Shown here one piece after another: positions 14,812 to 42,626 of a DNA stretch of 64,000 bases. The notes below the pieces were generated by a model. It was not told where the DNA came from. It saw nothing but the letters and a program-made list of their open reading frames with translations, and did not search any database. Position 1 is the first letter of the stretch. Each line of letters opens with the position of its first letter. The stretch comes from Dyadobacter fanqingshengii. Lineage in GTDB: Bacteria; Bacteroidota; Bacteroidia; Cytophagales; Spirosomataceae. A program made the translations under genes and the position numbers. Where the stretch lies: the NCBI RefSeq assembly GCF_023822005.2, contig NZ_CP098806.1, positions 3,596,001 to 3,660,000 of the forward strand, read 5' to 3'.

Positions 14812-14835
14812 TTGTTTATTACAACGGCTTTAAAA

Positions 14836-24919: not shown

Positions 24920-26083
24920 TTACCGGATGACCAGATCGGGTTTTAACACGCGGAGATTCTTCCTGGTTTTTTTTGATTTTTTCCTCCTGCCCCACCAGAT
25001 AACGGTCCCGGTTACTGGCAGGCTGGCGCAAATGAGGCTGGCCAGAAAAACAATGATCTTACCCGGAAGCCCTAAAATGGCCCCTACGTGAATGTCGTAA
25101 TTCATCCTGCGCAATTTATTGGCAAAATCAGCATCCTTGTAACGCCCGGAATAAGGACCGGTTGCTTTAATTTTTTTCAGGGAATATTGGTCAAAATAAT
25201 TGTAATCAACGCTATAATAGGTGCCCTCCCGAAAATTGACGTACGAAAAGATGGACTCCGATTTTAGGTGCGGAATGGAGATATTTATACCTGTATTAAC
25301 CGGATATTCCTTCCTTAATGTATACCAAACTTTATCCACTGATGTAATCGGGGTAAATGCCGATGAATACAATGTCGAGTCGGAAACAGGATTGTAATAT
25401 TCATCCGAACCCTTGCCACCGGTAACCGTGTAAAGCCCTTGGGAAAACCATTTGAAACCCCATACCAACCCTGTGGAGCCCAACAGGAAGCCAATTGACA
25501 AAACATAAAACCCGAAAACATTGTGCAAGTCGTAGTTTTTCCGCCTCCAAGCCGCATCCCATTTGATTGAAAAACGCTGTTTTGCAGCCGATTTGTTTTT
25601 TGGCCACCATAATACCAGTCCGCTGATCAGCATGACGAGGAATATCAATGTTGCGGACGCCACAACCGGCTGGCCAATGGTTGGCGGCAGCCATAAATAG
25701 TAATGCCCGTGTAAAATAAAGTGAAAAAAATCGCCTTCTTCGTTCCAGACATGCTTCACTTCGGCCGTGTACGGATTAACATAAACTACGTAATAATATT
25801 CGGGATCTGCATTATAAAAACCAACTTCGGCATTGCGCGTAGGGACGCCGTACAGAACGCCATTCGCTTTTTTGCCCGGAAGCATTTTTTCTGCGCTGGC
25901 TTGTAAAACCGATGGCGGTAAAACTTTCGCATTCGCTGGCGGTTCCACGAACATATAAGGTTGCGTGAAACTTTTTATTTCCTGTTCAAAAGCCAGAATA
26001 CAGCCGGTTATGGCGACAACAAACACCACAATCCCGGACGCCAGACCAAGGTAAAGATGCAATGTCCCGATCAGTTTTTTCAT
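24920..26083 (-). CDS. PepSY-associated TM-helix protein (iron-uptake type)
   Basis: 387 aa from the ATG at 26083 (a GTG two codons upstream is less likely). Four main membrane segments: about 8-30, 140-160, 190-215 and 335-360, with PepSY-like soluble parts between. The IGTLHLYLGLASGIVVFVVAITGC start and HVWNEEGDFFHFILHGHYYLW loop with several His residues are typical of the PepSY_TM group, often encoded with siderophore receptors and thought to reduce or process ferric chelates at the inner membrane. No receptor is adjacent, but its promoter shares a 27-nt element with the haem operon 13 kb away, supporting an iron-related role. Confidence 0.85.
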   Translation of the reverse strand: MKKLIGTLHLYLGLASGIVVFVVAITGCILAFEQEIKSFTQPYMFVEPPANAKVLPPSVLQASAEKMLPGKKANGVLYGVPTRNAEVGFYNADPEYYYVVYVNPYTAEVKHVWNEEGDFFHFILHGHYYLWLPPTIGQPVVASATLIFLVMLISGLVLWWPKNKSAAKQRFSIKWDAAWRRKNYDLHNVFGFYVLSIGFLLGSTGLVWGFKWFSQGLYTVTGGKGSDEYYNPVSDSTLYSSAFTPITSVDKVWYTLRKEYPVNTGINISIPHLKSESIFSYVNFREGTYYSVDYNYFDQYSLKKIKATGPYSGRYKDADFANKLRRMNYDIHVGAILGLPGKIIVFLASLICASLPVTGTVIWWGRRKKSKKTRKNLRVLKPDLVIR

Positions 26084-26095
26084 TAACACAATGCT

Positions 26096-26122
26096 TGCAA
26101 TTATTATTTAGACTCAATCAAA
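26096..26122 (-). promoter_or_regulatory. Iron-type promoter element upstream of the PepSY gene
   Basis: On the minus strand it runs from a TTTG (26122-26119) through AGTCTAAATAATAATT (26114-26099). It matches 39086-39112 upstream of the TonB receptor at 25 of 27 positions. It ends 12 nt before the ATG. Confidence 0.6.
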
Positions 26123-26147
26123 TTACTAATGTAGTGGGAACATTTCA

Positions 26148-26192
26148 AAAAACAAGAAATCCTGATCGAATAGGACCAGGATTTCTTGTTTT
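26148..26192 (-). terminator. Rho-independent terminator of the carbonic anhydrase gene
   Basis: Inverted repeat ACAAGAAATCCTG (26152-26164) and CAGGATTTCTTGT (26177-26189) with a 12-nt loop; read on the minus strand the stem is followed by a T-rich tract ending near 26145. It begins at the stop codon of the carbonic anhydrase gene. Confidence 0.8.
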
Positions 26193-26824
26193 CAGTCGAA
26201 CTGATATTTATAAATGCCCGTAACCTCTGTGCCCGGCGGCATATCAATGATCGGTTTTAGAATCCCGTCGTGCATTCCATACACCCATCCGTGCAAGTGC
26301 AAAGGCTGATTGTTCTTCCAGGCTTTTTGTACGATGTCGGTTTTGGATAAATTTTTAACCTGCTCCACCACATTCAACTCAACGAGCCTGTCAAAGCGTT
26401 TCCCTTGCTCTGTAATGGCTTCAAGTTCTGTTTCATGTTTGTCGTACACATCTTTAATGTTGCACAGCCATTTATTGATCAGCCCAAAATCGTTGTTCGT
26501 CATGGCAGCCCTGACGCCACCACATTGGTAATGTCCCACGACCAAAATATGCTTGACCTTTAAAACTTCAACAGCATATTGCAGCACGCTCAGCATGTTC
26601 ATATCCGTATGAACGACCAGGTTTGCAACATTACGGTGCACGAACATTTCGCCCGGCCGCGAACCTGTAAGATCTTCCGCCGGAACGCGACTGTCGGCAC
26701 AGCCGATCCATAAAAAATCGGGTTTTTGATCTTTGGCAAGATCTGTGAAATACGATTCATCCAGACCTAATTGCTCAGCAGCCCAGGTTTTATTGAAGTC
26801 TAAAAGCCTTTTGTATTGCTCCAT
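26192..26824 (-). CDS. Beta-class carbonic anhydrase
   Basis: 210 aa. Zinc ligands are seen in CADSRVPAEDL (Cys and the Asp-Arg dyad) and HYQCGGVRAA (His and Cys), the full beta-class set. E. coli Can is 220 aa, so this is full length. It interconverts CO2 and bicarbonate in the cytoplasm. It is a single-gene unit: its own terminator follows and ileS is divergent upstream. Confidence 0.94.
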   Translation of the reverse strand: MEQYKRLLDFNKTWAAEQLGLDESYFTDLAKDQKPDFLWIGCADSRVPAEDLTGSRPGEMFVHRNVANLVVHTDMNMLSVLQYAVEVLKVKHILVVGHYQCGGVRAAMTNNDFGLINKWLCNIKDVYDKHETELEAITEQGKRFDRLVELNVVEQVKNLSKTDIVQKAWKNNQPLHLHGWVYGMHDGILKPIIDMPPGTEVTGIYKYQFD

Positions 26825-26930
26825 TTGCGTTTTGTATAGTTATGTCCTGCTTTTGAAACGGCTGCAAAATAATACAATCTGCTTTCACATTCATTGAAAG
26901 CCGGACATCCTTTTAGCAGAAAAAAAATCG

Positions 26931-26938
26931 TAATTTTG
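26931..26938 (+). promoter_or_regulatory. Predicted -7 element for ileS
   Basis: TAATTTTG fits TAnnTTTG, about 94 nt before the ileS ATG. The -33 element is weak. The leader that follows carries a heptad-like repeat. Confidence 0.45.
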
Positions 26939-26989
26939 CGCTCTTAAATTCCCGATTGGCGTTAACGATACATTGCATTTACATTAGAA

Positions 26990-27027
26990 AGCTAATAGTC
27001 GAGCGCTAAAAGCTAACAGCTAACAGC
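26990..27027. repeat. Heptad-like AGCTAAC repeat in the ileS leader
   Basis: Degenerate reiteration of AGCTAA(C/T/A): AGCTAATAG, then GCTAAAAGCTAACAGCTAACAG, ending 4 nt before the start codon. It may be a simple repeat that drifted into the leader or a translation-control element; no T-box features are present. Confidence 0.5.
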
Positions 27028-27031
27028 ACAT

Positions 27032-30000
27032 ATGAAATACAGCGAATATAAAAACCTGAGTTATCCGCAAATAGGAGACGAAGTTCTGCAATTCTGGAAA
27101 GACAAAAAGATATTTGAAGCATCGGTTGAAACACGCGAAGGCGCACCCTCCTTTACATTTTTTGAAGGGCCGCCTTCTGCCAATGGAACGCCTGGTATTC
27201 ACCACGTTATGGCGCGGTCGATTAAGGATATTTTCTGCCGTTATAAAACATTGCAGGGCTTTCAGGTAAAAAGAAAGGGCGGCTGGGACACACACGGGCT
27301 TCCTGTTGAATTGCAGGTAGAAAAGGAACTCGGCATCACCAAGGACGACATCGGAAAAACCATTTCCATTGAAGACTACAACGAAAGATGCCGTCAGACT
27401 GTAATGAAATTTACGGATCAATGGAATGACCTGACCGAGAAAATGGGTTATTGGGTTGATCTGGAAGATCCATACATTACTTACAAAAGTGAATATATTG
27501 AAAGCCTTTGGAGCCTGCTTAAACAGCTGTATGACAAAGGTTTATTATACAAAGGCTACACAATCCAGCCATATTCCCCAGCTGCCGGAACCGGACTTTC
27601 GTCTCACGAGCTGAACATGCCGGGGACTTATAAGGACGTGAAAGACACGACCATCGTGGCAATGTTCAAGGTAAAAACGCCTGGCAACTACACAGCCTTT
27701 GGTGACTTGGAAAATCAGGATGCCGACAGTCCGGACATTAGAATCCTTGCCTGGACAACAACGCCCTGGACGCTTCCTGCGAACTCTGCGCTGACGGTTG
27801 GTGCCAACATTAATTATGTTTTGGTCAAAACCTTTAACCCATACACGCATGCGCCCGTGGCCGTGGTTCTGGCCAAAGATCTGATTGCCAAATATTTCTC
27901 TGAAAAAGGACGCGATGGTGACTTTGAAGGTTATGAAGCAAGCGATAAAAAGCTGCTCCCCTGGACGATTTTGAAAGAATTTAAGGGAAAAGACCTGGAA
28001 GGCATTGAGTATGAACAATTATTGCCCTATGTACAACCCACGGCACCCGCATTTCGCGTGATTCTGGGCGATTTTGTGACTACGGAAGACGGAACCGGTG
28101 TGGTGCATACATCCCCCACATTTGGTGCGGATGACTTCCGGGTGGCACAAGCCAATGGCATTCCGGCCATTATGGTAAAAGATGAAACGGGCAAGGACGT
28201 GCCTATTGTGGATCGTCAGGGCCGTTTTGTTAAAGAAATCACTGATTACGCCGGGCGCTACGTAAAGCCTGAATATTATTCCGAAGAAGAACAAAATGAC
28301 CCCGAGTTCCGCGCAACTGATGTGCTGATTGCGATCAGGTTGAAAGAGGAAGGAAAAGCATTCAAAGTTGAAAAATACGAACATCCTTACCCACATTGCT
28401 GGCGTACGGATAAGCCCGTTTTATATTATCCACTGGATAGTTGGTTTATCAAAACAACAGCCATGAAAGACAGGCTGGTGGAATTGAATAAAACCATCAA
28501 CTGGAAACCCGAAAGCACAGGAACAGGCCGTTTTGGCAACTGGCTCGAAAATCTGGTCGATTGGAACCTTTCACGCTCACGTTACTGGGGAACGCCCCTG
28601 CCGATCTGGCGCAACGATCACGGCGACGAAGTGTGCGTAGGTTCGATTGAACAGTTGAAAGATTTATTGGAAGAGGCATTGCTGACCGATCATTTGACAA
28701 GAGAGCAGGCGCTGCACAATTCCGAATATTTATTAAAATTGGAAAATGGCGACTACGACCTTCACAGGCCGTATGTTGACAACATTGTGCTGGTTTCGAA
28801 AAATGGCCACGTTATGCACCGCGAGCCGGACCTGATCGACGTTTGGTTTGATTCGGGCGCTATGCCTTATGCGCAATGGCATTATCCGTTCGAAAACAAG
28901 GAGATTTTTGAAAACAGCTATCCTGCCGATTTCATCTCGGAAGGTGTGGACCAAACACGCGGCTGGTTCTTCACATTACACGCCATCGCCGGAATGTTGT
29001 TTGATTCGGTGGCATTTAAAAACGTGGTTTCCACCGGTTTGGTTTTGGATAAAAATGGCAACAAGATGTCCAAACGTCTTGGCAATGCTGTTGATCCATT
29101 TACAACGCTTTCGAAATACGGGCCAGACACGACGCGCTGGTATATGATCACCAATGCAGAACCTTGGGATAACCTGAAATTCAACATTGACGGCATCGGC
29201 GAGGTGCAACGCAAGTTCTTTGGAACGCTCGTGAACACCTATAATTTCTTTGCATTATATGCCAATCTGGATGGTTATGAGTTTCATGAAAACCATTCTG
29301 TGCCGATCGAAAAACGCACCGAACTGGATCGCTGGATCCTTTCCAAGCTGAATACATTGGTGAAAGAAGTTGGCGAGCAATTTGATGACTATAATCCAAC
29401 GAAAGCGGGACGGCTTGTCCAGGATTTTGTTACGGACCAGCTTTCCAACTGGTATATCCGCCTCAACCGTCGCCGTTTCTGGAATCCGTCACAAGATTCC
29501 GGCGAAGGTTTGACAGAAGACAAACAAGCGGCATACGAAACATTGCAACATTGCCTTGTAACGGTGTCGCAATTAATGTCGCCAATCGCTCCGTTTTTTG
29601 GGGAATGGTTATACAAAAACCTCACAGACGGCGACCGTGCGGCTTCGATTGCAAATAACACAGATCATAAATACGAATCAGTCCACCTGACTTACTGGCC
29701 GAAGATCGAAACCGAAGTGGTTGATCTGGATTTGGAAGCGGCCATGGAGCAGGCCCAAACGATCAGTTCGCTCGTTCACTCAATCCGTAAAGGACACAAG
29801 ATCAAGGTGCGCCAGCCACTTTCCAAGATTTTGATCCCGGTTTTGAATGATAATACAAAACGTCAGATCGAGCAGGTTACGGCCATTATTTTGTCTGAGG
29901 TTAATGTTAAAACCATCGAGTTTGTACACGATGACAGCGGAATCCTGATCAAAAAAATCAAGCCGAATTTCAAGACTTTGGGACCGAAATTTGGCCCTAA

Positions 30001-30478
30001 AATGAAGGAAGTGGCGGCAGCAATTTCTGCAATGGATGAAACGGCGATTAAAGAAATAGAGAGAAACGGCTCAATAACGCTTAATGGGACAACGTCGCCT
30101 CTCGAAATTGCGCTTACTGATGTTGAAATCCATGCAGAAGACGTTCCAGGATGGTTAGTAGCCAGTGAAGGCGGCCTAACCGTTGCCCTTGACGTCACAA
30201 TCACAGATGAACTGCGCCTGGAAGGCATCGCCCGTGACTTTGTTAACCGCGTCCAGAATTTACGGAAAGACAGCGGTTTTGAAGTCACCGACAAGATCAG
30301 GATCACCTTACAAGACAACGACCGCCTGCTTACCAGTGCCGTAACTGCCAACAAAGATTACATCTGCCAGGAAGTGCAAGCGATGGAATTAAACCTCATC
30401 AACGACCTCAACGGCGAAGCCAATGAGATTGAAATGGATGAGTTTCTATTGAAGGTAAAGATTGAGGTTGTTTCGTAA
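27032..30478 (+). CDS. ileS: Isoleucyl-tRNA synthetase
   Basis: 1148 aa, class I synthetase of the long form (eukaryote-like IleRS type 2 length, against about 940 aa for E. coli IleS). The HIGH motif appears as GIHH (in PSANGTPGIHHVMARS), KMSKR is intact in NGNKMSKRLGNA, and the CP1 editing domain with the WTTTPWTLP threonine-rich motif is present. The C-terminal region after about 780 holds the anticodon-binding domain and an extra C-terminal extension. It charges tRNA-Ile and edits Val-tRNA-Ile. Long IleRS forms are linked in the literature to mupirocin tolerance, which is not provable here. A short frame overlaps its stop by one base. Confidence 0.97.
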   Translation: MKYSEYKNLSYPQIGDEVLQFWKDKKIFEASVETREGAPSFTFFEGPPSANGTPGIHHVMARSIKDIFCRYKTLQGFQVKRKGGWDTHGLPVELQVEKELGITKDDIGKTISIEDYNERCRQTVMKFTDQWNDLTEKMGYWVDLEDPYITYKSEYIESLWSLLKQLYDKGLLYKGYTIQPYSPAAGTGLSSHELNMPGTYKDVKDTTIVAMFKVKTPGNYTAFGDLENQDADSPDIRILAWTTTPWTLPANSALTVGANINYVLVKTFNPYTHAPVAVVLAKDLIAKYFSEKGRDGDFEGYEASDKKLLPWTILKEFKGKDLEGIEYEQLLPYVQPTAPAFRVILGDFVTTEDGTGVVHTSPTFGADDFRVAQANGIPAIMVKDETGKDVPIVDRQGRFVKEITDYAGRYVKPEYYSEEEQNDPEFRATDVLIAIRLKEEGKAFKVEKYEHPYPHCWRTDKPVLYYPLDSWFIKTTAMKDRLVELNKTINWKPESTGTGRFGNWLENLVDWNLSRSRYWGTPLPIWRNDHGDEVCVGSIEQLKDLLEEALLTDHLTREQALHNSEYLLKLENGDYDLHRPYVDNIVLVSKNGHVMHREPDLIDVWFDSGAMPYAQWHYPFENKEIFENSYPADFISEGVDQTRGWFFTLHAIAGMLFDSVAFKNVVSTGLVLDKNGNKMSKRLGNAVDPFTTLSKYGPDTTRWYMITNAEPWDNLKFNIDGIGEVQRKFFGTLVNTYNFFALYANLDGYEFHENHSVPIEKRTELDRWILSKLNTLVKEVGEQFDDYNPTKAGRLVQDFVTDQLSNWYIRLNRRRFWNPSQDSGEGLTEDKQAAYETLQHCLVTVSQLMSPIAPFFGEWLYKNLTDGDRAASIANNTDHKYESVHLTYWPKIETEVVDLDLEAAMEQAQTISSLVHSIRKGHKIKVRQPLSKILIPVLNDNTKRQIEQVTAIILSEVNVKTIEFVHDDSGILIKKIKPNFKTLGPKFGPKMKEVAAAISAMDETAIKEIERNGSITLNGTTSPLEIALTDVEIHAEDVPGWLVASEGGLTVALDVTITDELRLEGIARDFVNRVQNLRKDSGFEVTDKIRITLQDNDRLLTSAVTANKDYICQEVQAMELNLINDLNGEANEIEMDEFLLKVKIEVVS

Positions 30479-30654
30479 TGCAGCATCAAGCTTATCCATT
30501 TGTTCTTAATGAACAGGAGACACACTATAAGTTTGAAAGTATTGGTAAGCGGGGAATTTTTGAGAAGGCCGTCGCTTTCTCAGAACTTCGCCCGAATGTT
30601 TACAATCTTGCGATAACTCTTTTGAACACAACGGGTCTTTCGAAAGTTTTTTAA
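30478..30654 (+). pseudogene. Truncated DUF6934-like gene
   Basis: 58-codon frame whose ATG overlaps the ileS TAA (TAATG). The product reads YPFVLNEQETHYKFESIGKRG, then FEKAVAFSELRPNVYNLAI, which resembles the N-terminal third of DUF6934 proteins (about 150 aa in Bacteroidota, where YNLAFGD follows). After this point the likeness ends and a stop comes 12 codons later, so the rest of the domain is gone. I read it as a remnant; a short functional protein cannot be excluded. Confidence 0.55.
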
Positions 30655-30699
30655 TAGCACGTAAATCTTTAAATTCGTGATAAACACTGGTTTTAGGCT

Positions 30700-30870
30700 A
30701 TGAAAGTTTTAGAAAAAAAATTTACGATTCCAGCAAATCTGGCTCCAAAGACCACGATTGATAACTCGTTGCCAGATCTTTCGAATCATCCGGTAGTATT
30801 AAAAAAAGCAGAAGCTGCGCGAAAATTCCTGGAAACACATCCGATTCCAGAACATCTTTTGAAAAGATAG
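30700..30870 (+). CDS. Small protein, unknown function (DUF6934 neighbour)
   Basis: 56 aa: begins [18 protein letters not shown], has a central [23 protein letters not shown] helix and ends PEHLLKR. It is too short for automatic callers but has a proper ATG and stop. It lies 45 bp after the DUF6934-like remnant and 4 bp before the SDR start. Small proteins beside DUF6934 genes recur in this group as far as I recall, so the two may be remains of a two-gene module. No function can be given. Confidence 0.5.
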
Positions 30871-30874
30871 TCAG

Positions 30875-31654
30875 GTGCAGCTGCAAAACTCCACAGCATT
30901 GATAACAGGCGGCGCTTCCGGGCTTGGCGAGGCGACAGCGCGGTTGTTTGTTGAGTTAGGAGCGAATGTTGTTGTTTTGGACTTAAATGAAATTGCTGGG
31001 AAGCAATTAGAAGCTGAATTTTTTGATAGAATAATATTTATAAAGACTGACGTTTCCAGTGAAAGCGATGTGCAAAACGCCGTTGACCTTACGCTGGAAA
31101 CGTTTGGTTTTATAAGCATTGTCGTGAACTGTGCTGGCATTGCTCCCGCGCGAAAAATCGTGGGAAAAGCGGACGGCATTTATGGGCCGCATTCATTTGA
31201 GCTTTTCGAAAAGACGGTTAAGACCAATCTGATCGGCACTTTTAATGTGATGCGATTGGCTGCGTTTGCTATGGAACGGAATGACCCTAACGATGAGGGC
31301 GAGCGCGGTGTGATCATCAATACGGCTTCCGTTGCTGCATTTGACGGACAAATGGGACAGGTTGCCTATGCTGCCAGCAAAGGCGGCATTGTGAGCATGA
31401 CCTTGCCCGTTGCCCGGGATCTCGCAAAGTCCGGCATTCGGGTTATGGCCATTGCGCCAGGCCTGTTTGAAACGCCATTAATGCTTGGACTCCCCGAAGA
31501 AGCCCGCATTTCACTGGGACAGCAGGTTCCTTTTCCATCACGTTTAGGCCGGCCGTCGGAATACGCATTGCTCGTGAAATCCATTGTAGAAAACCCAATG
31601 CTGAACGGCGAAGTGATCCGGCTGGATGGTGCCATTAGAATGAGTCCGAAATGA
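30875..31654 (+). CDS. SDR dehydrogenase, 3-hydroxyacyl-CoA dehydrogenase type-2-like
   Basis: 259 aa with a GTG start at 30875; no ATG occurs before the conserved [18 protein letters not shown] cofactor motif. NCAG, the catalytic Ser in [12 protein letters not shown] and YAASK (Tyr-Lys) are present, and the inserted [22 protein letters not shown] stretch is characteristic of the HSD17B10 / short-chain 3-hydroxyacyl-CoA dehydrogenase group. Asp in VVLDLNE favours NAD. It may oxidise 3-hydroxyacyl-CoA in fatty-acid breakdown, but no other beta-oxidation gene is adjacent. Confidence 0.88.
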
Positions 31655-32040
31655 GAGAGAAGCCGAAATTCAAGAACGAAAATTCAATGTGGCGCTGGTT
31701 AATTCTAGCGCTATTGCTGACGAGCATTGTTTCGGAAAATTTTACTGAGCCAAGATCGATATACAGAATAGAGGAAGTAATTTCCAATGTTAAAGAGACT
31801 TCTCCGGCGGCAACACCATTCTCGCATTTTTCTGAAAATCTAAATAAAGCAGCCGCTCCTTCAAATAAATATCAACTACAACGCAAACGCCTTCGCATTC
31901 TTTCTGAAATGCTCCACTTACACACTGAACTGGCGATTTCCAACGCGCCAGCCTTGCTGCCTATGGTCATGAGCGCGACTGGCCAGTATCTCAAAAGCAG
32001 ATCAATTTCTTCCGAAGAACCAATCCATCTCCATTCCTGA
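31651..32040 (+). CDS. Hypothetical small protein with N-terminal hydrophobic segment
   Basis: 129 aa, ATG overlapping the SDR stop (ATGA), which supports coupled translation. Residues 14-28 ([15 protein letters not shown]) are hydrophobic and may be a signal anchor; an internal ATG at 31687 would put this segment at the very N-terminus. The rest is polar with an [16 protein letters not shown] helix. I do not recognise a family. Confidence 0.5.
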
Positions 32041-32124
32041 AACACATCTGATATTCTGTCAGTGTGATTAACGCTCTTTCCTCAAAGGACTGAGTCGCTT
32101 TTCTTTTTTTAATCGAAAAACGGA

Positions 32125-32277
32125 ATGGGAAAAATTTTATCGGCCGCTAAAAAGTGGCTTAGAAGGCTTGCTATGGCTTATATGCTTGGTTTTGCCAATG
32201 CGATCAATCAGGAAGTAAAAACCGTAGACGACACCTTTTTCAAAACAGAAGAAATTCAAAAGGATAAGAAAGGTTAG
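32125..32277 (+). CDS. Small basic/hydrophobic protein of unknown function
   Basis: 50 aa, ATG at 32125. It has a basic amphipathic start (GKILSAAKKWLRRL), a hydrophobic stretch AMAYMLGFANAI and an acidic-to-basic tail ending IQKDKKG. Missed by length cut-offs. It precedes, convergently, the DeoR gene. A membrane-active or membrane-associated small protein is possible but unproven. Confidence 0.5.
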   Translation: MGKILSAAKKWLRRLAMAYMLGFANAINQEVKTVDDTFFKTEEIQKDKKG

Positions 32278-32290
32278 ATCAATATCAACC

Positions 32291-33040
32291 TCAAACCATT
32301 CGAATCCCGATATCGGTGTAAATTTTAAACTCTTCCTTGTCTGCCGGCTGATCGGTAATGATCATAGACAACTGTTCAGCCGGACAGACATAATGTGCTT
32401 CCGCAGTCGCCAGTTTCTCTACGGATGCAAGCGCAATCACTTCCCTGGAACATTCAATCATCGCTCTTTTTACCTCGCTTTCCTCGTAATCCGGGCCTGT
32501 AACGCCCAAGTGTGAGTGAATGCTGCATATGCCGAGCAGGCAAATATCTGCGCGAAATTTCTTTAAAAACTGGATCGTGTCGTAGCCTATCGTCACAAAA
32601 GAGTTTTTTAATAGTCGGCCTCCTGCAAACAGCACGTCGACATGCTCATGTTCTTCGAGAATAGATGCGATTGGAAAACTGTTGGTAACAACCGTCAACC
32701 GAATGTCTTTTGGTAATGACTGGGCAATGAGCATAGCAGACGTCCCGCCGTCAAAAATAACGAGCTGACCGTCTTTGAGGAAATTCAAAGCCTTGTTTGC
32801 AATAATCTGCTTTTGCTCGTTATCACGTAAAACCCTGTCGCGGAAATGATGCGGACCCGGAGAATGTGGCACGGCGCCCCCACGCACAGACTTTAAAAGT
32901 CCCTGGTCGGCAAGCTCTTTGATATCCCTGCGGACTGTGTCCTCGGAAACATTCAACAATGCACTTAGCCCAGCCAGATATACTTTCTGCTCATTGTTAA
33001 GCCGATCCAGTATGAGTTGAAACCGTTCCTCTTTTAACAT
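32291..33040 (-). CDS. DeoR/GlpR-family transcriptional regulator
   Basis: 249 aa from the ATG at 33040 (MLKEERFQLILDRL is the usual start of the family; a TTG seven codons upstream is less likely). Winged HTH at 5-57 (LLNVSEDTVRRDIKEL), then a sugar-phosphate isomerase-like effector domain with FDGGTSAMLIAQ and GICSIHSHLGVTGPDYEE. These repressors usually respond to a phosphorylated sugar or nucleoside. It is divergent from a 5'-nucleotidase-like gene, and two copies of a TTGCAA palindrome lie between, so autoregulation and control of the nucleotidase gene are likely. Confidence 0.9.
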   Translation of the reverse strand: MLKEERFQLILDRLNNEQKVYLAGLSALLNVSEDTVRRDIKELADQGLLKSVRGGAVPHSPGPHHFRDRVLRDNEQKQIIANKALNFLKDGQLVIFDGGTSAMLIAQSLPKDIRLTVVTNSFPIASILEEHEHVDVLFAGGRLLKNSFVTIGYDTIQFLKKFRADICLLGICSIHSHLGVTGPDYEESEVKRAMIECSREVIALASVEKLATAEAHYVCPAEQLSMIITDQPADKEEFKIYTDIGIRMV

Positions 33041-33086
33041 TATCACTTCTGTTTTATGCAAAAATAGAAATATAACTGAAATTTCA

Positions 33087-33102
33087 TTGCAACATACTGC
33101 AT
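33087..33102. promoter_or_regulatory. Predicted DeoR operator, copy 1
   Basis: TTGCAACATACTGCAT, a degenerate copy of TTGCAA-N4-TTGCAA, placed at the -33 region of the nucleotidase promoter (ATTG at 33086-33089). Confidence 0.55.
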
Positions 33103-33110
33103 ATTAAATT

Positions 33111-33118
33111 TACATTTG
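33111..33118 (+). promoter_or_regulatory. Predicted -7 element of the nucleotidase gene
   Basis: TACATTTG matches TAnnTTTG exactly. ATTG at 33086-33089 lies 21 bases upstream as a -33 element. The box lies between the two operator copies. Confidence 0.6.
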
Positions 33119-33134
33119 TTGCAAAATATTGCAA
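33119..33134. promoter_or_regulatory. Predicted DeoR operator, copy 2
   Basis: TTGCAAAATATTGCAA is an exact TTGCAA-N4-TTGCAA inverted repeat, 32 bp from copy 1 (three helical turns) and over the predicted transcription start. Confidence 0.65.
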
Positions 33135-33149
33135 ATCAAAGTTTGAATC

Positions 33150-33677
33150 ATGAAGAAATCGATTGCCATTGACATGGATAATGTCATCGTTGATATTGAA
33201 ACCAACTGGATAGGTTGGTATGAAAAAGAATTTGGAGTCAGAATTGATAAACAAGATTTGCTGGGTATTCCGGAAGACGATGCCTTCCCAGACCCTGTTG
33301 CTGCCAGGAGCCTGATTTACAAAACGGGTTTTTTCCGTGATGCGCCCATGATCCAGGGAGCGGCAGAAGCGGTTTTAAAGTTGCAGGAAAATTATGACAT
33401 TTTTATTGTGTCAGCTGCCATGGAATTTCCCAATTCCCTCATTGAAAAACATGACTGGCTCAACGAACATTTCCCATTCATATCCTGGAAAAACATTGTT
33501 TTTTGCGGCGATAAAAGAATCATCGACACCGATTACCTCATCGACGACCACCTAAAAAACCTCGATTTCTGCAAAGGAACACCTATTCTTTTCACTGCCA
33601 GCCACAATGTGAATGTGACAAAGCATAAACGTGTGAATAACTGGAATGAAGCGCTGGCGTTGCTGGAAGTTGGTTAA
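33150..33677 (+). CDS. 5'(3')-deoxyribonucleotidase-like HAD phosphatase
   Basis: 175 aa. IAIDMDNVIVD carries the DxD nucleophile pair (Asp8 and Asp10) with Asn in place of the usual Gly of the NT5C signature; motif II Ser in IVSAAMEFP and motif III DYLIDDH follow. The pattern and length match the NT5C group that removes phosphate from deoxyribonucleoside monophosphates. Divergent from a DeoR repressor, which fits nucleoside-linked regulation. Confidence 0.85.
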   Translation: MKKSIAIDMDNVIVDIETNWIGWYEKEFGVRIDKQDLLGIPEDDAFPDPVAARSLIYKTGFFRDAPMIQGAAEAVLKLQENYDIFIVSAAMEFPNSLIEKHDWLNEHFPFISWKNIVFCGDKRIIDTDYLIDDHLKNLDFCKGTPILFTASHNVNVTKHKRVNNWNEALALLEVG

Positions 33678-33685
33678 TTCTGCAA

Positions 33686-35704
33686 TCAAGCCGCTGCCTT
33701 TGCACGCTCTTTCAACTGCAGTAACTCGTCTCTGAGCCTTGCTGCTTCCAGGAAGTCCAGATCCTTAGCGGCGGTTTCCATTTTGCGCTGGGTTTCGGAA
33801 ATTAGCTTTTGGAGATCGTTCTTGCCCATGTATTGAACAACCGGATCTGCGGCGATGCGAACTTCGGTCGGCTCTACGTAAACCTTGCGGACTTTCGAAT
33901 CGGCAACGGACGTTTGTTCCATGATCGCTTCTTTGGATTTCAGGATGGTCCTCGGCGTTATGCCATGCTCAGCATTGTATTCCAGCTGAATGCTTCTTCT
34001 CCTGTTCGTCTCATCAATAGCAAGTTGCATGGAGCCGGTCATCACATCCGCATACATAATCACCTTTCCCCGGTCATTACGCGCGGCGCGACCAATGGTC
34101 TGGATCATGGAACGCGTGTCCCGCAAAAATCCTTCCTTATCGGCATCCATAATGGCGACGAGGGAAACCTCAGGCAAATCCAATCCTTCGCGAAGCAAGT
34201 TAACGCCTACCAGCACATCAAAAATACCCAACCTCAACTCCCGCAAAATCTCAACACGATCCAGCGTTTTGACTTCCGAATGTATATAGCGACATTTCAC
34301 GCCTACTCTCTCCAAATATTTGCTCAGCTCCTCTGCCATTCTTTTGGTCAAAGTCGTGATCAGCACGCGGTCACCCATCGCAATGCGCTTGTGGGATTCT
34401 TCCAGCAAATCATCAATCTGATTCAAGCTTGGCCTTACTTCAATTTCCGGGTCCAACAGGCCGGTAGGACGGATAATTTGCTCTACTACAACACCCTCCG
34501 ATTTGCGCAGCTCGTAATCCGCAGGCGTAGCGCTTACAAATATAGTCTGCGGCGTCATATCTTCGAATTCCTGGAATGTTAGCGGCCTGTTGTCCATCGC
34601 CGAGGGCAAACGGAAACCATATTCCACCAATTGCTCCTTCCGCGAACGGTCACCACCCCACATGGCGCGGATCTGCGGCATAGTAACGTGACTTTCGTCC
34701 ACCACCATTAAGAAATCGTCGGGAAAATAATCGAGCAAGCAGAATGGCCTCTGACCCGGCAAACGGCGGTCGAAATAGCGTGAATAGTTTTCGATTCCTG
34801 AGCAATAACCCAGTTCACGCATCATTTCCATATCGAATTCGGTGCGCTCCTTCACCCGCTCTGCCTCTGCTAATCTGCCTTCTTTTGTAAAAAAGTTTAT
34901 TTGCTGCAACAGGTCATCCTGAATTTCCTTGATGGATTGTACCAGAACATCTCTTCCCGTTACAAAAAGGTTTGCAGGGAAAATAGCAATTGCGCGCTCG
35001 GAAGATATCTTTTTACCCGTTTCAGGCTCAATGCGCTGTATTTCTTCAATTTCATCCCCAAAAAAGATGATCCGGTATGCAAAATCTGCATAACCCGGAA
35101 AAACGTCGACCGTGTCGCCTTTCACCCGGAATGTCCCGCGATTGAATTCAAGCTCGGTGCGGCTGTAAAGAATTTCCACCAAACGAAACAGAAATTGATT
35201 GCGGCTCACAATGTCGCCCAGCTTGGCGCTGACAATGCTTTTCTTGTATTCATTGGGGTTACCTGCGCCATAAATACAAGAAACCGAAGCCACCACGATC
35301 ACATCACGCCTCCCGCTCATCAGGGACGAAACCGTGTGTAAACGCAGTTTTTCAATCTCCTGATTGATCTGCAAATCTTTTTCAATGTATGTGTTGGTGC
35401 TGGAAATGAAGGCTTCCGGCTGGTAATAGTCGTAGTAGCTGATAAAATACTCGACGGCATTCTGCGGGAAAAATTGCTTGAATTCCCCGTAAAGCTGCGC
35501 AGCAAGTGTCTTGTTATGACTTAAAACAAGGGTTGGTTTTTTCACCTGCTTCACCACATTGGCAATGGTGAAAGTCTTACCGGAACCCGTCACACCCAAA
35601 AGCGTCTGGGCGGGTTCTCCGGCTTCAATTCCCTGTACAAGTTGTTGGATAGCCGCAGGTTGATCGCCCGTTGGCTGGTATTCAGAGGTTATTTCAAAGT
35701 CCAT
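33686..35704 (-). CDS. uvrB: Excinuclease ABC subunit B
   Basis: 672 aa, full length. Walker A GVTGSGKTFT near 37-46, the YYDYYQPEAF beta-hairpin region that grips damaged DNA, DESHVT as motif II, the RecA2 motifs (GRAARN), and the C-terminal UVR domain (LQKLISETQRKMETAAKDLDFLEAARLRDEL) that contacts UvrC. It works with UvrA and UvrC in nucleotide excision repair. Stop codons of uvrB and the convergent nucleotidase gene are 8 bp apart. Confidence 0.97.
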   Translation of the reverse strand: MDFEITSEYQPTGDQPAAIQQLVQGIEAGEPAQTLLGVTGSGKTFTIANVVKQVKKPTLVLSHNKTLAAQLYGEFKQFFPQNAVEYFISYYDYYQPEAFISSTNTYIEKDLQINQEIEKLRLHTVSSLMSGRRDVIVVASVSCIYGAGNPNEYKKSIVSAKLGDIVSRNQFLFRLVEILYSRTELEFNRGTFRVKGDTVDVFPGYADFAYRIIFFGDEIEEIQRIEPETGKKISSERAIAIFPANLFVTGRDVLVQSIKEIQDDLLQQINFFTKEGRLAEAERVKERTEFDMEMMRELGYCSGIENYSRYFDRRLPGQRPFCLLDYFPDDFLMVVDESHVTMPQIRAMWGGDRSRKEQLVEYGFRLPSAMDNRPLTFQEFEDMTPQTIFVSATPADYELRKSEGVVVEQIIRPTGLLDPEIEVRPSLNQIDDLLEESHKRIAMGDRVLITTLTKRMAEELSKYLERVGVKCRYIHSEVKTLDRVEILRELRLGIFDVLVGVNLLREGLDLPEVSLVAIMDADKEGFLRDTRSMIQTIGRAARNDRGKVIMYADVMTGSMQLAIDETNRRRSIQLEYNAEHGITPRTILKSKEAIMEQTSVADSKVRKVYVEPTEVRIAADPVVQYMGKNDLQKLISETQRKMETAAKDLDFLEAARLRDELLQLKERAKAAA

Positions 35705-35731
35705 AACGTATTGTGAGCATTCCAGAGATAA

Positions 35732-35767
35732 CGCATTTCAAAGATAGATTAGTTTCTTTGAAATGCG
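35732..35767. repeat. Perfect 13-bp inverted repeat between uvrB and the cupin gene
   Basis: CGCATTTCAAAGA (35732-35744) and TCTTTGAAATGCG (35755-35767) with a 10-nt loop. It lies just after the cupin stop and 28 nt before the uvrB start. No T-run follows on either strand, so it may be an atypical terminator or a regulatory site for uvrB. Confidence 0.55.
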
Positions 35768-35779
35768 TCCCGGATACTT

Positions 35780-36634
35780 CTACGCCTGTTCAGTCAAAAC
35801 TTCTTTAGCGTTTTCAGCCGCTTTTTTCTCTTTCCAATGCTGCCAGCCCAAGCCTAGCAACTTGGTCATGCTTTTATCCACGAATGTATGTCTCACGAGG
35901 TTCATGCCGCCGCGCACTGCCGTAAAAATGGAATTATTGGCTCTCAATGCTAAGCTGAAACCGCCATCCACATAGCGGATATAATGCCACCAAAGCGAAG
36001 GAATAAATATCGTTTCACCGTGCAGCAATGTTGTTTCGTGGCCCACCGCGCCTTTCAATGCAGGGAATCTTTCGTAATCCGGGTTAATAGGATCTACTTT
36101 GCTCATTACGGTAAATGGGTGGTGATATAATCTCCTGCTTTCTTCGGGAGAGAACAAAATCACTTGCTTACGTGTCTGAAACTGCGTCAAAAACACATTC
36201 GAGCAATCCATATCATAGTGCAGACTGGTAATAGAACCCTGTCCGCCAAAGAAAACAAATTTATATGACTTCAAAAATCCATCCATAATGGTTGGAAAAC
36301 GAATGTCATTGGCCAATTCGGGCACTTTTTTGAATATATCAAAAAGGAAAATCCGCAGGTCCGTCGGGCCGCCCTCGATGAGTTTCAGGTAATCACCGAA
36401 CTTCATTGTTTTGGCAATCTGAAAATATTTATCGGCGTCGTGCATGTGGTTATCCACCAAAGGCACATCAATTTCTCCGTGGTTTTCGCGCAGCCATTCA
36501 AAGGTCCATTTCTGAACTGCCGGCCAATCTTTTGCCAGGTCTGTGAAGACAACCGGGCGACTTGGTTTTAAATAATTTTCAATGAATTCTTCGCGGGTAA
36601 GCCCGCTGCGTTTCTCTATGGGCACTAATTTCAT
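35780..36634 (-). CDS. JmjC-like cupin (cupin_8) family protein
   Basis: 284 aa. The Fe(II)/2-oxoglutarate facial triad is visible: HxD in ITSLHYDMDCS and the distal His in PSLWWHYIRY; Lys/Thr residues expected for 2-oxoglutarate are in the same barrel. The family includes asparagine and arginine hydroxylases acting on proteins such as ribosomal subunits. Target unknown. It is 75 bp upstream of uvrB on the same strand and divergent from an AraC gene. Confidence 0.85.
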   Translation of the reverse strand: MKLVPIEKRSGLTREEFIENYLKPSRPVVFTDLAKDWPAVQKWTFEWLRENHGEIDVPLVDNHMHDADKYFQIAKTMKFGDYLKLIEGGPTDLRIFLFDIFKKVPELANDIRFPTIMDGFLKSYKFVFFGGQGSITSLHYDMDCSNVFLTQFQTRKQVILFSPEESRRLYHHPFTVMSKVDPINPDYERFPALKGAVGHETTLLHGETIFIPSLWWHYIRYVDGGFSLALRANNSIFTAVRGGMNLVRHTFVDKSMTKLLGLGWQHWKEKKAAENAKEVLTEQA

Positions 36635-36848
36635 GACAGAAACTGAGTAAATGGTAATCGACTATTGAAAAAATTAATGTCAGAATTACTTTTCTAACAT
36701 CCTTTGAAAGTGAATAATTCTAAATTTATCCGAATCTTAGCTAGATCAAATGTATTAAAGAGATTTCAAATATGTAAATTTCTGAATGAATCCTTAAATG
36801 GGTTATCCAATTTATAGATTTAGTAGAATGTTCATTTAACCTGCTGCA

Positions 36849-37658
36849 ATGAAATATTTTACCATTCCACCATCCCCTGAGCTGGCAAAGTATGTAAGAT
36901 TTTTTTGGGTCCTCGAACACGAAATCGGATCAGGGCAACCTTACATTCACCGCACTATGGCTGATGGTTGCGCGGAAATGATATTTCATTACAAAGGCCG
37001 GTTTGATGAATTTGTGAATGGCGACGAGACGGAACAATCTTTCTACTCCGGCATTCACGGGCAATCACAAACGTTCAGGCGGTTTGTCATTCATGAGGAC
37101 TTCGGAATCTTTGGAGTTTACCTATATCCGTTTGCCATTCCGGTGCTGTTTGGAATGCCGTCTACCGAACTTACGGGCCAAATGCCCGACCTGCATACGT
37201 TCCTGGGCGAAAAAGCAAATGGCCTGGAAGAGCGGATGATGCTGGCGGCAGATCATACAGAGCGCGTCGCCGTCATTTCAGCATTTCTCGAATCGCTTCT
37301 TGTCAAAAACAGGACACATGAACCGGCCGTTTTTTCAGTCATTAATCAAATTATTCAAAATAAGGGCCTTACCACTGTGCAGGAGCTTGCTGCGCAAAGT
37401 TTTCTTTCGACCCGTCAGTTTGAGAGGAAATTCAAGGAATTCTCCGGATTCAGTCCTAAACTTTATCTGCGCATAGCCCGCTTTCATGCAGCGCTGGATG
37501 CTTATGGAGAGAAGGACAAGTCGCTGACCGAGATCGCTTATGAATGCGGTTATTACGATCAGTCGCATTTTATTCACGATTTTAAATCCTTTTCAGGTCA
37601 GCACCCGCGTTTTTACTTTTCAGGAAAGTCGGAAGGGCAAGCGTATCGGGATGTATAA
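36849..37658 (+). CDS. AraC-family transcriptional regulator with DUF6597-type N-domain
   Basis: 269 aa. Residues 1-150 form the small-ligand domain common in Bacteroidota AraC proteins (IPPSPELAKYVRFFWVLEHE, MADGCAEMIFHYKG). Residues 165-265 hold the two helix-turn-helix motifs: VQELAAQSFLSTRQFERKFKEFSG and LTEIAYECGYYDQSHFIHDFKSFSG. The following genes for a VOC protein, a small beta protein and YceI lie on the same strand, making them possible targets. Confidence 0.9.
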   Translation: MKYFTIPPSPELAKYVRFFWVLEHEIGSGQPYIHRTMADGCAEMIFHYKGRFDEFVNGDETEQSFYSGIHGQSQTFRRFVIHEDFGIFGVYLYPFAIPVLFGMPSTELTGQMPDLHTFLGEKANGLEERMMLAADHTERVAVISAFLESLLVKNRTHEPAVFSVINQIIQNKGLTTVQELAAQSFLSTRQFERKFKEFSGFSPKLYLRIARFHAALDAYGEKDKSLTEIAYECGYYDQSHFIHDFKSFSGQHPRFYFSGKSEGQAYRDV

Positions 37659-37727
37659 TGTCGCGTTTTTCCAATTTTGAGCGCTGGGGACGCGGCTACA
37701 TTTGCCTAAACTAAAAAAACAAAAATC

Positions 37728-38114
37728 ATGAGCACAGTAAAAATCCCAAATGGCCATCAGGCGGTTATGCCTTACTTAATGTTGGATGGAGCTGCCAAAT
37801 TCAAGGACTTTGTAACCAATGTCTTCAATAGTGCGGTCTCTCACACGCAATTTCAGGACGATAATCCCAACGCGATCAAGCATGCCGAGGCCAACATTAG
37901 CGGAAGCACGATCATGTTTTGCGACAGCCGTCCCGAGTGGCCTGCGCAACCTGCGAATATGTTTGTATATGTAGAAAATGCAGATGACACTTATGAAAAA
38001 GCATTGGCGGAAAGTGGAAAATCAGTAATGGAGCCAGCAGACCAGGATTATGGGCGCAGCTGCGGCGTGGAAGATCCATGCGGAAATGTTTGGTGGATCA
38101 CATCTGTTCTTTAA
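37728..38114 (+). CDS. VOC-superfamily protein (PhnB/glyoxalase-like)
   Basis: 128 aa, a PhnB-type vicinal oxygen chelate protein: AVMPYLMLDGAAKFKDFVTNVF at the start, ISGSTIMFCDSRPEW in the middle and YGRSCGVEDPCGNVWWIT at the end. The residues normally used for a metal are only partly present, as in most PhnB proteins. No substrate can be named. The next gene starts 2 bp after its stop. Confidence 0.87.
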   Translation: MSTVKIPNGHQAVMPYLMLDGAAKFKDFVTNVFNSAVSHTQFQDDNPNAIKHAEANISGSTIMFCDSRPEWPAQPANMFVYVENADDTYEKALAESGKSVMEPADQDYGRSCGVEDPCGNVWWITSVL

Positions 38115-38116
38115 AA

Positions 38117-38455
38117 ATGATCAATTACAATAACAAAGTCTTTGTTCCTCTTTCCAATTCAGAAAATGGTGAGGTTGACCTTTCCATGCAATTTGTATAT
38201 CATCAAAATGGCAACATTGTCACCTCAACATATTCCGGTGGCCGGATTCACACCGGACATCTGATCGCGTTGGTGGACGAAGACGGGAATCTGGATATGC
38301 GTTACCATCAGGTGAATGACAAAGGCGAGATCACGACAGGCATTTGCAAATCAACGCCCGAGCAACTTCCCAATGGAAAAATCCGTATGCATGAGAAATG
38401 GCAATGGACTTCGGGAGATCAATCCGAAGGCGAATCGCTGTTGGAAGAAATATAG
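38117..38455 (+). CDS. Small conserved protein of the so-called N-acetylglutamate-synthase-like family
   Basis: 112 aa from the ATG at 38117, 2 bp after the VOC stop; an upstream alternative start at 38078 lies inside that gene and is rejected. Beta-rich, with SENGEVDLSMQFVYHQNGNIVTS, YSGGRIHTGHLIALVDEDGNLDMRYHQ and a final RMHEKWQW. Homologues carry a label of N-acetylglutamate synthase that I believe to be a database error, since no GNAT motif is present. Function unknown. Confidence 0.75.
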   Translation: MINYNNKVFVPLSNSENGEVDLSMQFVYHQNGNIVTSTYSGGRIHTGHLIALVDEDGNLDMRYHQVNDKGEITTGICKSTPEQLPNGKIRMHEKWQWTSGDQSEGESLLEEI

Positions 38456-38480
38456 AATTTAAAAAACCGTCTCCCTGTTT

Positions 38481-39017
38481 ATGCGCAACCGCCTTCAAAT
38501 TATTACATTCTTTTTTGCATTCATTGGTCCAAATATGGCTTTTGGGCAAACGTCCAAAGTCGTTTCAGGATCTACCAATTTCAAAGTAAAATATGTATTG
38601 GGAACTTGCGACGGCACCTTTGATGCGCCGAAAGGTGAGGCGGTTTTCAACGAAAACTCCCCGCAAAATGCTTCATTCAACATTGATATTGCCGCCAATA
38701 GTTTCAAAACAGGGAATAATTCGCGGGATAAGGATATGAAAAGCGACAAGTATTTTTATGTCGAAAAACATCCCAATATCAATTTCAAATCCACCAAAGT
38801 GGAGAAAAAGAATGGCAAATATGAAGCAACAGGAAAGCTGACCATCAGGGATGTTACCAAAACGGTTACGCTGCCCTTTGAGGCTAAAAAGAATGCGGAC
38901 GGCAGTTACGCAGTTTCGAGCACTTTCGAAGTAAACCGTCTCGATTACAAGGTCGGAACAAAGGACTGGAAGTTAAAAGATGTCGTTACGGTCGATATGA
39001 AGGCGATTATCAAGTAG
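38481..39017 (+). CDS. YceI-family protein, secreted
   Basis: 178 aa with an N-terminal signal peptide (RLQIITFFFAFIGPNMAFGQ) and a YceI lipocalin-like beta barrel: NFKVKYVLGTCDGTFDAPKGEAVF, then KYFYVEKHPNINFKSTKVE and a final VGTKDWKLKDVVTVDM. YceI proteins bind polyisoprenoid or other lipids in the periplasm; ligand not defined here. A terminator follows directly. A second YceI gene without signal peptide occurs at 58347. Confidence 0.88.
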   Translation: MRNRLQIITFFFAFIGPNMAFGQTSKVVSGSTNFKVKYVLGTCDGTFDAPKGEAVFNENSPQNASFNIDIAANSFKTGNNSRDKDMKSDKYFYVEKHPNINFKSTKVEKKNGKYEATGKLTIRDVTKTVTLPFEAKKNADGSYAVSSTFEVNRLDYKVGTKDWKLKDVVTVDMKAIIK

Positions 39018-39035
39018 TATTAATGGCGTTTAGGC

Positions 39036-39067
39036 AAAAAACCCGGTTCATTTGAGCCGGGTTTTTT
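39036..39067 (+). terminator. Rho-independent terminator after the secreted YceI gene
   Basis: AAAAAACCCGG (39036-39046), 10-nt loop, CCGGGTTTTTT (39057-39067). It isolates YceI from the haem operon downstream. Confidence 0.85.
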
Positions 39068-39085
39068 ATTTATTATCAATTCTAT

Positions 39086-39116
39086 TTTGATTTAGTCTAA
39101 ATAATAATTTCATTTG
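39086..39116 (+). promoter_or_regulatory. Promoter and iron-type operator of the haem operon
   Basis: TTTG at 39086-39089, 19 bases, then TTCATTTG at 39109-39116 (one mismatch to TAnnTTTG). The spacer contains the perfect palindrome ATTTAGTCTAAAT (39090-39102), so a bound repressor would block the promoter. 39086-39112 repeats upstream of the PepSY gene with 2 mismatches. Confidence 0.65.
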
Positions 39117-39139
39117 CAAACATTCTAAATGAGCCTTCC

Positions 39140-41231: not shown

Positions 41232-42626
41232 ATGAAGAAGATAGCCAAATCCCTGTTACTGATTGCTTTTTTTGCCAGTTTCAATGCTTGTAATGATGAC
41301 GAGCCGCCACTTCCCGACAACACTGCCAGCTTTGAAAGTGCCGCACAAGGTTTTGAAGGTGAAGAAGCTGAAATAAAAATCGTTTTGTCCAGGGCCGTGG
41401 ATGTTGCTACGCCAATCAGCATTTCGCTTACGCCAGCATTGCTTGTCTACGGCACAGAATTCACGACAGCGCCCGCCGCCGCAAATAACACAATCGCCCT
41501 GACCGTTCCAGCCGGGCAGTCTTCGGCTTCCATTAAAGTAGCCAGGAAAGCGGGCGTTTTGCTGGATGGGGACGAAAGCGTAGCATTTAAAATCACTTCC
41601 GTTGGTGCCCCGGCAATGATCGGAGCCAACACAGAGCTGAAACTGAGCTTCAAAGCAATCGTTTCGGATGGCACCAGCATTCAACTGAACGGAATTGCGG
41701 GAACCGAGCTGGGAAGCAGCGCCGCTAATTCAGTATTTCTGGACCTGAGCAGCAACATTCAAACGCCGGTTTTGCGTGATAGCTGGGATCTTGGCTTCTA
41801 TAATGATGCCGATTTCCGCGTGGTGATCAATGCTACGAACGGCGCTTCGGTGCTGGAAATCAACAAAACGGACATTAATGCGGTTTCGGCCAAAGACGTC
41901 GTAATGGATTCATTGGCAGTGGGCCAGGGAATGGGGAAACTGAGCCTGGTTGATGATGCAAAAGGAGATCTGACCAAAACTGCGATCAAAGAGATTTCCG
42001 TAACCGATGCAGATAACAAAGTTTACATTTTGAACAGAAAAGGCGGAAACGCGACGGTCCTTCCTGCCGATCAAATTTACAAGATCCGCGTTTTGAGAAA
42101 AGGAACAGGTTATGTACTACAATACGCAAAACTCAATGAAACGACTTCCAAAACCATTGATATAACCAAAGACACAGCCTACAACTTCGAATATGTTTCC
42201 CTTGAAAAAGGCGCGACCGTGGACGTGGAGCCATTAAAAGCGCGCTGGGACCTGAACTGGGGTTATAGCATGTATTACACCAATTTCGGCACAGGCATGA
42301 TCCCTTACGGATTCTCAGACCTTGTATTTACCAACAAACAGGCAAAAGTGGAAGCGGCAGAAGTGCTCACCAGCACCGTCACTTATGATGCATTCAATGA
42401 AAACAACATTGCCGCAGCAAAATTCAGCACAGACGCAGACGCCATCGGTTCCAAATGGCGGGTTACTTCTGGTGGACCCGTTGGTGTAAAAACAGATCGT
42501 TTTTATGTGATTAAGGACAGCGCGGGGAATGTTTATAAGCTTAGGTTTGTAAGCTTTCACGCAGAAGATGGAGGTGTAAGAGGCAAGCCCAAGTTGGAAT
42601 ACAAGCTGGTTAAAAAAGGAGCCTGA
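41232..42626 (+). CDS. HmuY-family haem-binding lipoprotein with Calx-beta-like domain
   Basis: 464 aa lipoprotein: lipobox ending at Cys20 (FFASFNAC). Residues about 28-130 resemble a Calx-beta domain (LLDGDESVAFKITS), followed by HmuY-like domain(s) with DSWDLGFYNDADFRVVIN and later RWDLNWGYSMYYTNFG. Two WDL blocks suggest a duplicated HmuY unit. HmuY proteins bind haem at the cell surface and pass it to the receptor. Starts 25 bp after the receptor stop. Confidence 0.87.
   Translation: MKKIAKSLLLIAFFASFNACNDDEPPLPDNTASFESAAQGFEGEEAEIKIVLSRAVDVATPISISLTPALLVYGTEFTTAPAAANNTIALTVPAGQSSASIKVARKAGVLLDGDESVAFKITSVGAPAMIGANTELKLSFKAIVSDGTSIQLNGIAGTELGSSAANSVFLDLSSNIQTPVLRDSWDLGFYNDADFRVVINATNGASVLEINKTDINAVSAKDVVMDSLAVGQGMGKLSLVDDAKGDLTKTAIKEISVTDADNKVYILNRKGGNATVLPADQIYKIRVLRKGTGYVLQYAKLNETTSKTIDITKDTAYNFEYVSLEKGATVDVEPLKARWDLNWGYSMYYTNFGTGMIPYGFSDLVFTNKQAKVEAAEVLTSTVTYDAFNENNIAAAKFSTDADAIGSKWRVTSGGPVGVKTDRFYVIKDSAGNVYKLRFVSFHAEDGGVRGKPKLEYKLVKKGA

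Follow-up and report, generated by a model that had tools for sequence, protein, structure and literature searches.

Haem operon, PepSY gene and their upstream sequences

We analysed a window of 64,000 nucleotides from Dyadobacter fanqingshengii (contig NZ_CP098806.1, positions 3,596,001 to 3,660,000), in which a haem operon and a gene for a PepSY_TM protein are preceded by nearly the same short stretch of DNA. Both sites are probably operators of the iron repressor Fur, and iron-loaded Fur would repress the two genes, which would be on under iron shortage. The haem operon starts with a TonB-dependent receptor (39140..41206, plus strand) that carries the Pfam Plug and TonB barrel domains and whose best NCBIfam name is a haem/haemoglobin receptor family, below the cut-off. 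It is followed by an HmuY-family protein (41232..42626, plus strand) with two stretches matched by Pfam HmuY and by a second HmuY-family protein (42662..43225, plus strand; Pfam HmuY). The PepSY_TM protein of 387 amino acids is encoded on the minus strand (24920..26083, with its ATG at 26083); scanned from a GTG at 26089, it matched Pfam PepSY_TM with 5e-67.

According to the original prediction, positions 26096-26122 (minus strand) and 39086-39112 (plus strand) agree at 25 of 27 positions, and our recount confirmed this match. In their 24-nt forms, TTTGATTGAGTCTAAATAATAATT (minus strand, 26122-26099) and TTTGATTTAGTCTAAATAATAATT (plus strand, 39086-39109), the two stretches are the same at 23 of 24 positions. 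In the genome of 6.27 Mb the 24-mer TTTGATTKAGTCTAAATAATAATT had no third place at up to three mismatches. The window contains 28 pairs of 27-mers with at most two mismatches on either strand, two of which are registers of the haem/PepSY pair, while the other 26 all come from a single inverted repeat near 61.0 kb. None of 20 windows simulated with a first-order Markov model gave a comparable pair, so the match is not due to chance. The inverted repeat itself (61003-61110) consists of the arms 61003-61054 and 61059-61110, which are complementary at 48 of 52 positions.

Upstream of the haem operon, the predicted Fur-type operator ATTTTGATTTAGTCTAAATAAT lies at 39084..39105 on the plus strand with a 13-bp core, ATTTAGTCTAAAT, at 39090-39102, and the box ends 34 bp before the ATG. 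In Bacteroidota the consensus of the -7 promoter element is TANNTTTG. The candidate -7 element of the haem operon, TTCATTTG (39109..39116, plus strand), agrees with it at 7 of 8 positions and is preceded at a distance of 19 nt by TTTG (39086..39089, plus strand), the candidate -33 element; this -7/-33 naming is also used in the available part of PMC5609570. As the original prediction had stated, the palindrome ATTTAGTCTAAAT is located inside this 19-nt interval. The core was found with 12 of 12 positions in the relatives L166-L168, L172 and L177, which by eye also show TTTG or TTG at about the -33 place and have retained TTTG at about the -7 place.

At the PepSY gene, the predicted Fur-type operator AATTTGATTGAGTCTAAATAAT (26103..26124, minus strand) ends 19 bp before the ATG. 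Here the candidate -7 element, TACATTAG (26126..26133, minus strand), lies upstream of the operator, and CTTG (26153..26156, minus strand), 19 nt before TACATTAG, is a candidate -33 element on the basis of this spacing. Downstream of the operator no -7-like box was found at the spacing of the haem operon. In the genus, all 27 PepSY promoters with a box of at least 10/12 have TANNTT upstream of the operator, either at offset -15 (18 promoters) or at -16 (9 promoters). TTTG directly precedes the box in only 7 of these 27 and therefore is probably no -33 element at PepSY, which speaks against the proposal of a -33 element common to both sites. A shared promoter, as originally proposed, was rejected for PepSY with its -7-like box upstream of the operator. 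The PepSY box follows TANNTT, whereas the haem box fills the spacer between -33 and -7; since the predicted promoter geometry differs in this way, the two genes share an operator and not a promoter.

Conservation and genomic distribution of the box

For the comparison within the genus, 48 genomes were used, and the loci comprised the best 30 of 41 haem TonB matches, the best 30 of 43 PepSY matches and all 30 matches of a third gene, a DUF4856 gene; our own genome is included in the 30-locus haem and PepSY counts. The sequence TTAGNCTAA was present within 320 bp of the match start in 25 of the 30 haem TonB loci and within 330 bp in 28, distances that are shifted because several matches begin inside the gene. 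At the PepSY loci the exact TTAGNCTAA occurred in none of 30, and a box of at least 10/12 was found in 27 of 30, beginning 28-37 bp before the match. The DUF4856 loci had the exact sequence in 10 of 30 and a box of at least 10/12 in 17 of 30. A pattern close to TTATAATTAGTCTAAATAA is common to the three families. In one relative (G006) the DUF4856 gene matched in two pieces (L251 and L254) with a stop inside each.

A weight matrix (F) was trained on these loci after exclusion of our own genome, of the broken fragment L251 and of every locus with a best box below 9/12; 22 of 29 haem TonB, 28 of 29 PepSY and 24 of 27 DUF4856 loci were kept. With this matrix, built from relatives only, the haem operator ranked first and the PepSY operator second among the 127,958 positions of the window. 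The same order was obtained in all three runs in which one family was left out of the training, including the one without PepSY. At a threshold of 15 bits, matrices that had not seen the family in question recognised 27 of 29 haem TonB, 24 of 27 DUF4856 and 6 of 29 PepSY promoters, whereas gene bodies totalling about 106 kb (52, 28 and 26 kb) yielded no match.

In the window a weak second operator, ATTTGCAAACATTCTAAATGAG, is predicted at 39112..39133 (plus strand) with an F-matrix score of 11.6; at this place the relatives L166-L168 have CAATTATTCTAAATAA and many other relatives have a second AATTAGTCTAAAT. Two separate boxes reached 15 bits at the haem TonB promoters of 15 of 29 relatives, where by eye they flank the TTTG-type -7 box, one on each side. 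The arrangement TTTG...TCTAAATAA...TANNTTTG occurred in 21 of 29 DUF4856 promoters, and a second box after the -7 element was seen by eye. In the DUF4856-imelysin promoters (L057 and its orthologues L225-L245) boxes were found before and after a TATGTTTG-like -7 element.

The original prediction had suggested a scan of the whole genome with the 27-nt element. While the strict 24-mer was restricted to the two known sites, the looser pattern TTTWKAWTTAKTCTAAATWA with at most two mismatches had 14 places in the genome, compared with three for a reversed control, and nine of the 14 face genes of iron-uptake type. The nine comprise the receptor of the haem operon, the PepSY gene, a TonB receptor with PepSY_TM downstream (L070), FecB/FecCD (L075), a TonB receptor (L056), DUF4856-imelysin-HTTM (L057) and three further TonB receptors (L260, L264 and, 263 bp away, L265). 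The FecB site also faces a dicarboxylate symporter and the L265 site a PAP2 protein. At the other five places, an open reading frame (ORF) of 86 amino acids, an outer-membrane protein, a site within a gene, a cytochrome and a sugar-isomerase-like gene were found.

At up to three mismatches the facing proteins were compared for 30 of the 59 real and 30 of the 41 control places, after which three proteins of two doubly counted sites (L274, L281) were removed from the real set (30 to 27). Five of the 30 real places were inside predicted genes versus 17 of the 30 control places. An enrichment of TonB receptors at this stringency was dropped as unclear against the reversed control, where an Nramp and a coproporphyrinogen oxidase gene were present as well. 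The core TTAGNCTAA alone occurred at 31 places (the reversed pattern at 188), 24 of which are intergenic by a simple ORF rule. Five of these places face iron genes of the Fur type, another is the mntH site, and a further one precedes a ferritin gene by 111 bp; the remaining genes, as far as they were scanned, either lacked an obvious connection to iron or were without a Pfam match. TTAGNCTAA alone was rejected as an unspecific marker. The place before the ferritin gene, TTAGTCTAA (L062:4997-5005), is situated inside the end of a small predicted ORF and may be a regulated site.

The dtxR-mntH box and other explanations

As candidate regulator the original prediction had named the DtxR-type protein of the window (14020..14697, minus strand), which contains DtxR-family domains as well as a FeoA domain and is the only DtxR-family member of the genome. 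It is 98% identical to its counterparts in Dyadobacter alkalitolerans, D. psychrophilus and Dyadobacter sp. CY347, which places the window in Dyadobacter. Divergent from it lies an Nramp transporter gene, mntH (14812..16185, plus strand; Pfam Nramp, ORF limits set mechanically), and between the two genes there is a palindromic box, TTTAGACTAACCTAAA (14752..14767). Half-sites TTTAG/CTAAA are indeed present at 14.75 kb, as had been pointed out, but they form a different operator. This MntR/DtxR-type box, TTTAGRYNNRYCTAAA, shares CTAAA half-sites, often also TAGTCTAAA, with the haem/PepSY box, whereas its half-sites are six bases apart instead of one and are followed by T-runs, and it belongs to another regulator gene, beside mntH. 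The exact TTTAG-N6-CTAAA was found in 77 of the 80 dtxR-mntH loci of relatives.

We compared the two boxes by matrix cross-scoring, using F and a second matrix (M) made from 77 of the 80 dtxR-mntH boxes. Scores of M did not exceed 7.0 at the haem operator and 5.0 at the PepSY operator, compared with 32.1 at its own box, and F gave 30.6 at haem, 28.4 at PepSY and 9.9 at dtxR-mntH. At 15 bits M recognised none of 29 haem, one of 29 PepSY and none of 27 DUF4856 promoters. Conversely, the full F matrix reached 15 bits in 8 of the 80 dtxR-mntH promoters and 18 bits in none of them. Together with the half-site spacing, this cross-scoring led us to reject the DtxR-type protein as the first-choice regulator.

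Nevertheless, the DtxR-type protein might be an iron-dependent repressor and bind the haem and PepSY sites in addition to its own box. CTAAA occurs in both boxes, TTAGNCTAA is also found in 17 of 80 dtxR-mntH regions, and the classical DtxR box has a centre similar to the core of the haem/PepSY box. The PDB matches of the protein were, in this order, an unnamed metal-dependent regulator, a putative iron-dependent repressor, and then SloR and ScaR. A DtxR-family gene of Porphyromonas gingivalis, which the available part of the source lists together with feoB1, rises under low iron. The presence of the gene in all 48 genus genomes agrees with such a role as well, although it makes a comparison of presence and absence uninformative. 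However, the spacing of the half-sites and the scores of both matrices separate the two boxes, and the protein has MntR as its best NCBIfam name (below the cut-off), SloR and ScaR among its PDB matches and mntH as its neighbour. With its domains, this neighbour and the palindromic box in between, it is more likely an MntR of the SloR/ScaR type with a box of its own, and we consider its action at the haem and PepSY sites improbable.

Another iron-answering regulator, either the second Fur-family protein of the genome (L084:4813-5232) or an unrecognised factor, could also bind the box. The second Fur-family protein is present, yet it is short, rich in histidine and cysteine and has a weak score on every Fur-family NCBIfam name; our guess is that it is a zinc regulator. 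As the likeness to the box of Riemerella described below favours Fur, we regard such a regulator as distinctly improbable. There is hardly any prospect that the 27-nt identity is a product of chance or of a duplicated promoter without regulatory meaning since, besides the simulations, the box is kept separately at each gene across the genus, although AATAATT outside the box is mostly not retained in relatives and part of the 25/27 match is thus fortuitous.

Fur as the probable regulator and comparison with known systems

The most likely regulator is, from its sequence and position, a Fur-family protein whose gene is located outside the window, immediately before purA, the gene of adenylosuccinate synthetase (G000:C1 3,728,798-3,729,298, minus strand, corresponding to L083:4799-5299). 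It matched PF01475 above the cut-off, and its best PDB match was a ferric uptake regulation protein. In the roughly 120 bp upstream of its gene, no box of the F type was seen by eye.

A Fur box predicted as ATTTAGAATTATTCTAAAT was described for Riemerella anatipestifer, and Fur binding to four promoters was reported from electrophoretic mobility shift assays (EMSA) in the part of this paper available (PMC5609570). At both genes of the window a 19-bp box similar to ATTTAGAATTATTCTAAAT is found no further than about 100 bp from the start codon, and a hand alignment of the haem site gave 16 of 19 positions. The Riemerella and Dyadobacter boxes share the right half TCTAAAT, the hexamers ATTTAG/CTAAAT and the 6-6-1-6 layout, and both occur within about 100 bp of haem/iron receptor genes. 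In Dyadobacter, however, the second hexamer is often AATTAG or ATTTAG, which results in the compact core ATTTAGTCTAAAT, and AA usually follows. Nine of the 11 boxes listed for Riemerella, two of which are one site on both strands, scored 10.6-23.9 under F, and at most 4 of 2000 shuffles were as high. Under M the maximum was 8.6, although the shared CTAAA still put four boxes above nearly all of their shuffles (at most one of 2000 as high). In the window, CTTAGAATTATTCTAGTTAA (3125-3146, minus strand; F score 14.1) is also near the core of the Riemerella consensus and precedes an alpha/beta hydrolase gene (2136-3107) by about 17 bp.

Several points weigh against Fur or reduce the force of the tests. 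The F training sites were chosen by their likeness to the haem core, which makes the matrix tests partly circular and not wholly independent, and with PepSY left out only 6 of 29 PepSY promoters of relatives reached 15 bits, their left half being variable. The test with TTTWKAWTTAKTCTAAATWA is partly circular as well because, of the nine iron-type places, only L260 and L265 were new and the other seven had been found before the pattern was written. At up to three mismatches there was little excess over the reversed control (59 places versus 41), and TonB receptors were only mildly commoner, with Plug in 8 of 27 facing proteins compared with 3 of 18. Two of the 11 Riemerella boxes (MarR and sprT) do not fit F, and the sprT box had been tested by EMSA. 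Moreover, the available part of PMC7976709 gives the classical box GATAATGATAATCATTATC for Riemerella. Finally, the genome encodes two Fur-family proteins, and the best NCBIfam name of the candidate is Fur, yet below its cut-off.

Fur binding, repression, the start sites and the iron response are what we infer from these sequence comparisons. With enough iron, iron-loaded Fur would bind a box with a 6-6-1-6 arrangement (ATTTTG ATTTAG T CTAAAT), behind which AATAAT follows. In the haem promoter Fur would cover the predicted spacer between -33 and -7, and at PepSY the bases just past the -7-like box, close to where transcription is expected to start; in both cases RNA polymerase would be blocked, and both genes would switch on when iron becomes short. 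The position of the operators relative to the predicted -33/-7 elements would fit such an overlap with the promoter. One iron-related regulator for both genes, as first proposed, is thus probable, since the box is conserved in orthologous promoters and recurs before genes of iron-uptake type, but the assignment to DtxR is not upheld.

These results provide Dyadobacter with a testable candidate Fur operator and a draft iron regulon that comprises the haem TonB/HmuY genes, two PepSY_TM genes, FecB/FecCD, DUF4856-imelysin and several TonB receptors. They also tell the Fur box apart from the look-alike MntR box, which is easily confused with it when reading by eye. It is tempting to speculate, although we think it rather unlikely, that the Fur operator of Cytophagales has shifted to the compact core ATTTAGTCTAAAT that shares CTAAA, often also TAGTCTAAA, with the MntR box, so that iron and manganese regulators might partly cross-read their sites, and that strongly iron-controlled promoters of the genus might as a rule carry Fur boxes in tandem, the first within the -33/-7 spacer and the second immediately behind -7.

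Among the matches listed in a literature search with the box strings, only the Riemerella paper was relevant by its title, and a search for Fur and iron in Dyadobacter found no Fur study. In related systems, the available parts of two further Riemerella studies report that a fur deletion and mutation of the Fur box raised the expression of a haemophore gene (PMC11967795) and that Fur binds the promoter of an iron-uptake gene (PMC7976709). Flavobacterium psychrophilum has, according to the part of the study available, a single Fur gene upstream of purA, the same position as that of our candidate, and an hfp haem operon that is repressed by iron; efforts to delete fur in this species did not succeed (PMC9331221). 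Hfp consists of a TonB receptor and an HmuY-like protein and is induced by iron shortage; the same gene types are found here, with two HmuY-family genes in the Dyadobacter operon and one in Hfp, for which the part available names no operator (PMC9331221). For Bacteroides thetaiotaomicron, the accessible part of another study describes a locus with PepSY and TonB that rises under low iron (PMC10434189). The classical Fur box GATAATGATAATCATTATC and the Dyadobacter box are both built of hexamer repeats around one central base, the hexamer being GATAAT in the former and ATTTAG in the latter. With the Fur boxes predicted here, the two genes would have an ordinary type of iron switch.

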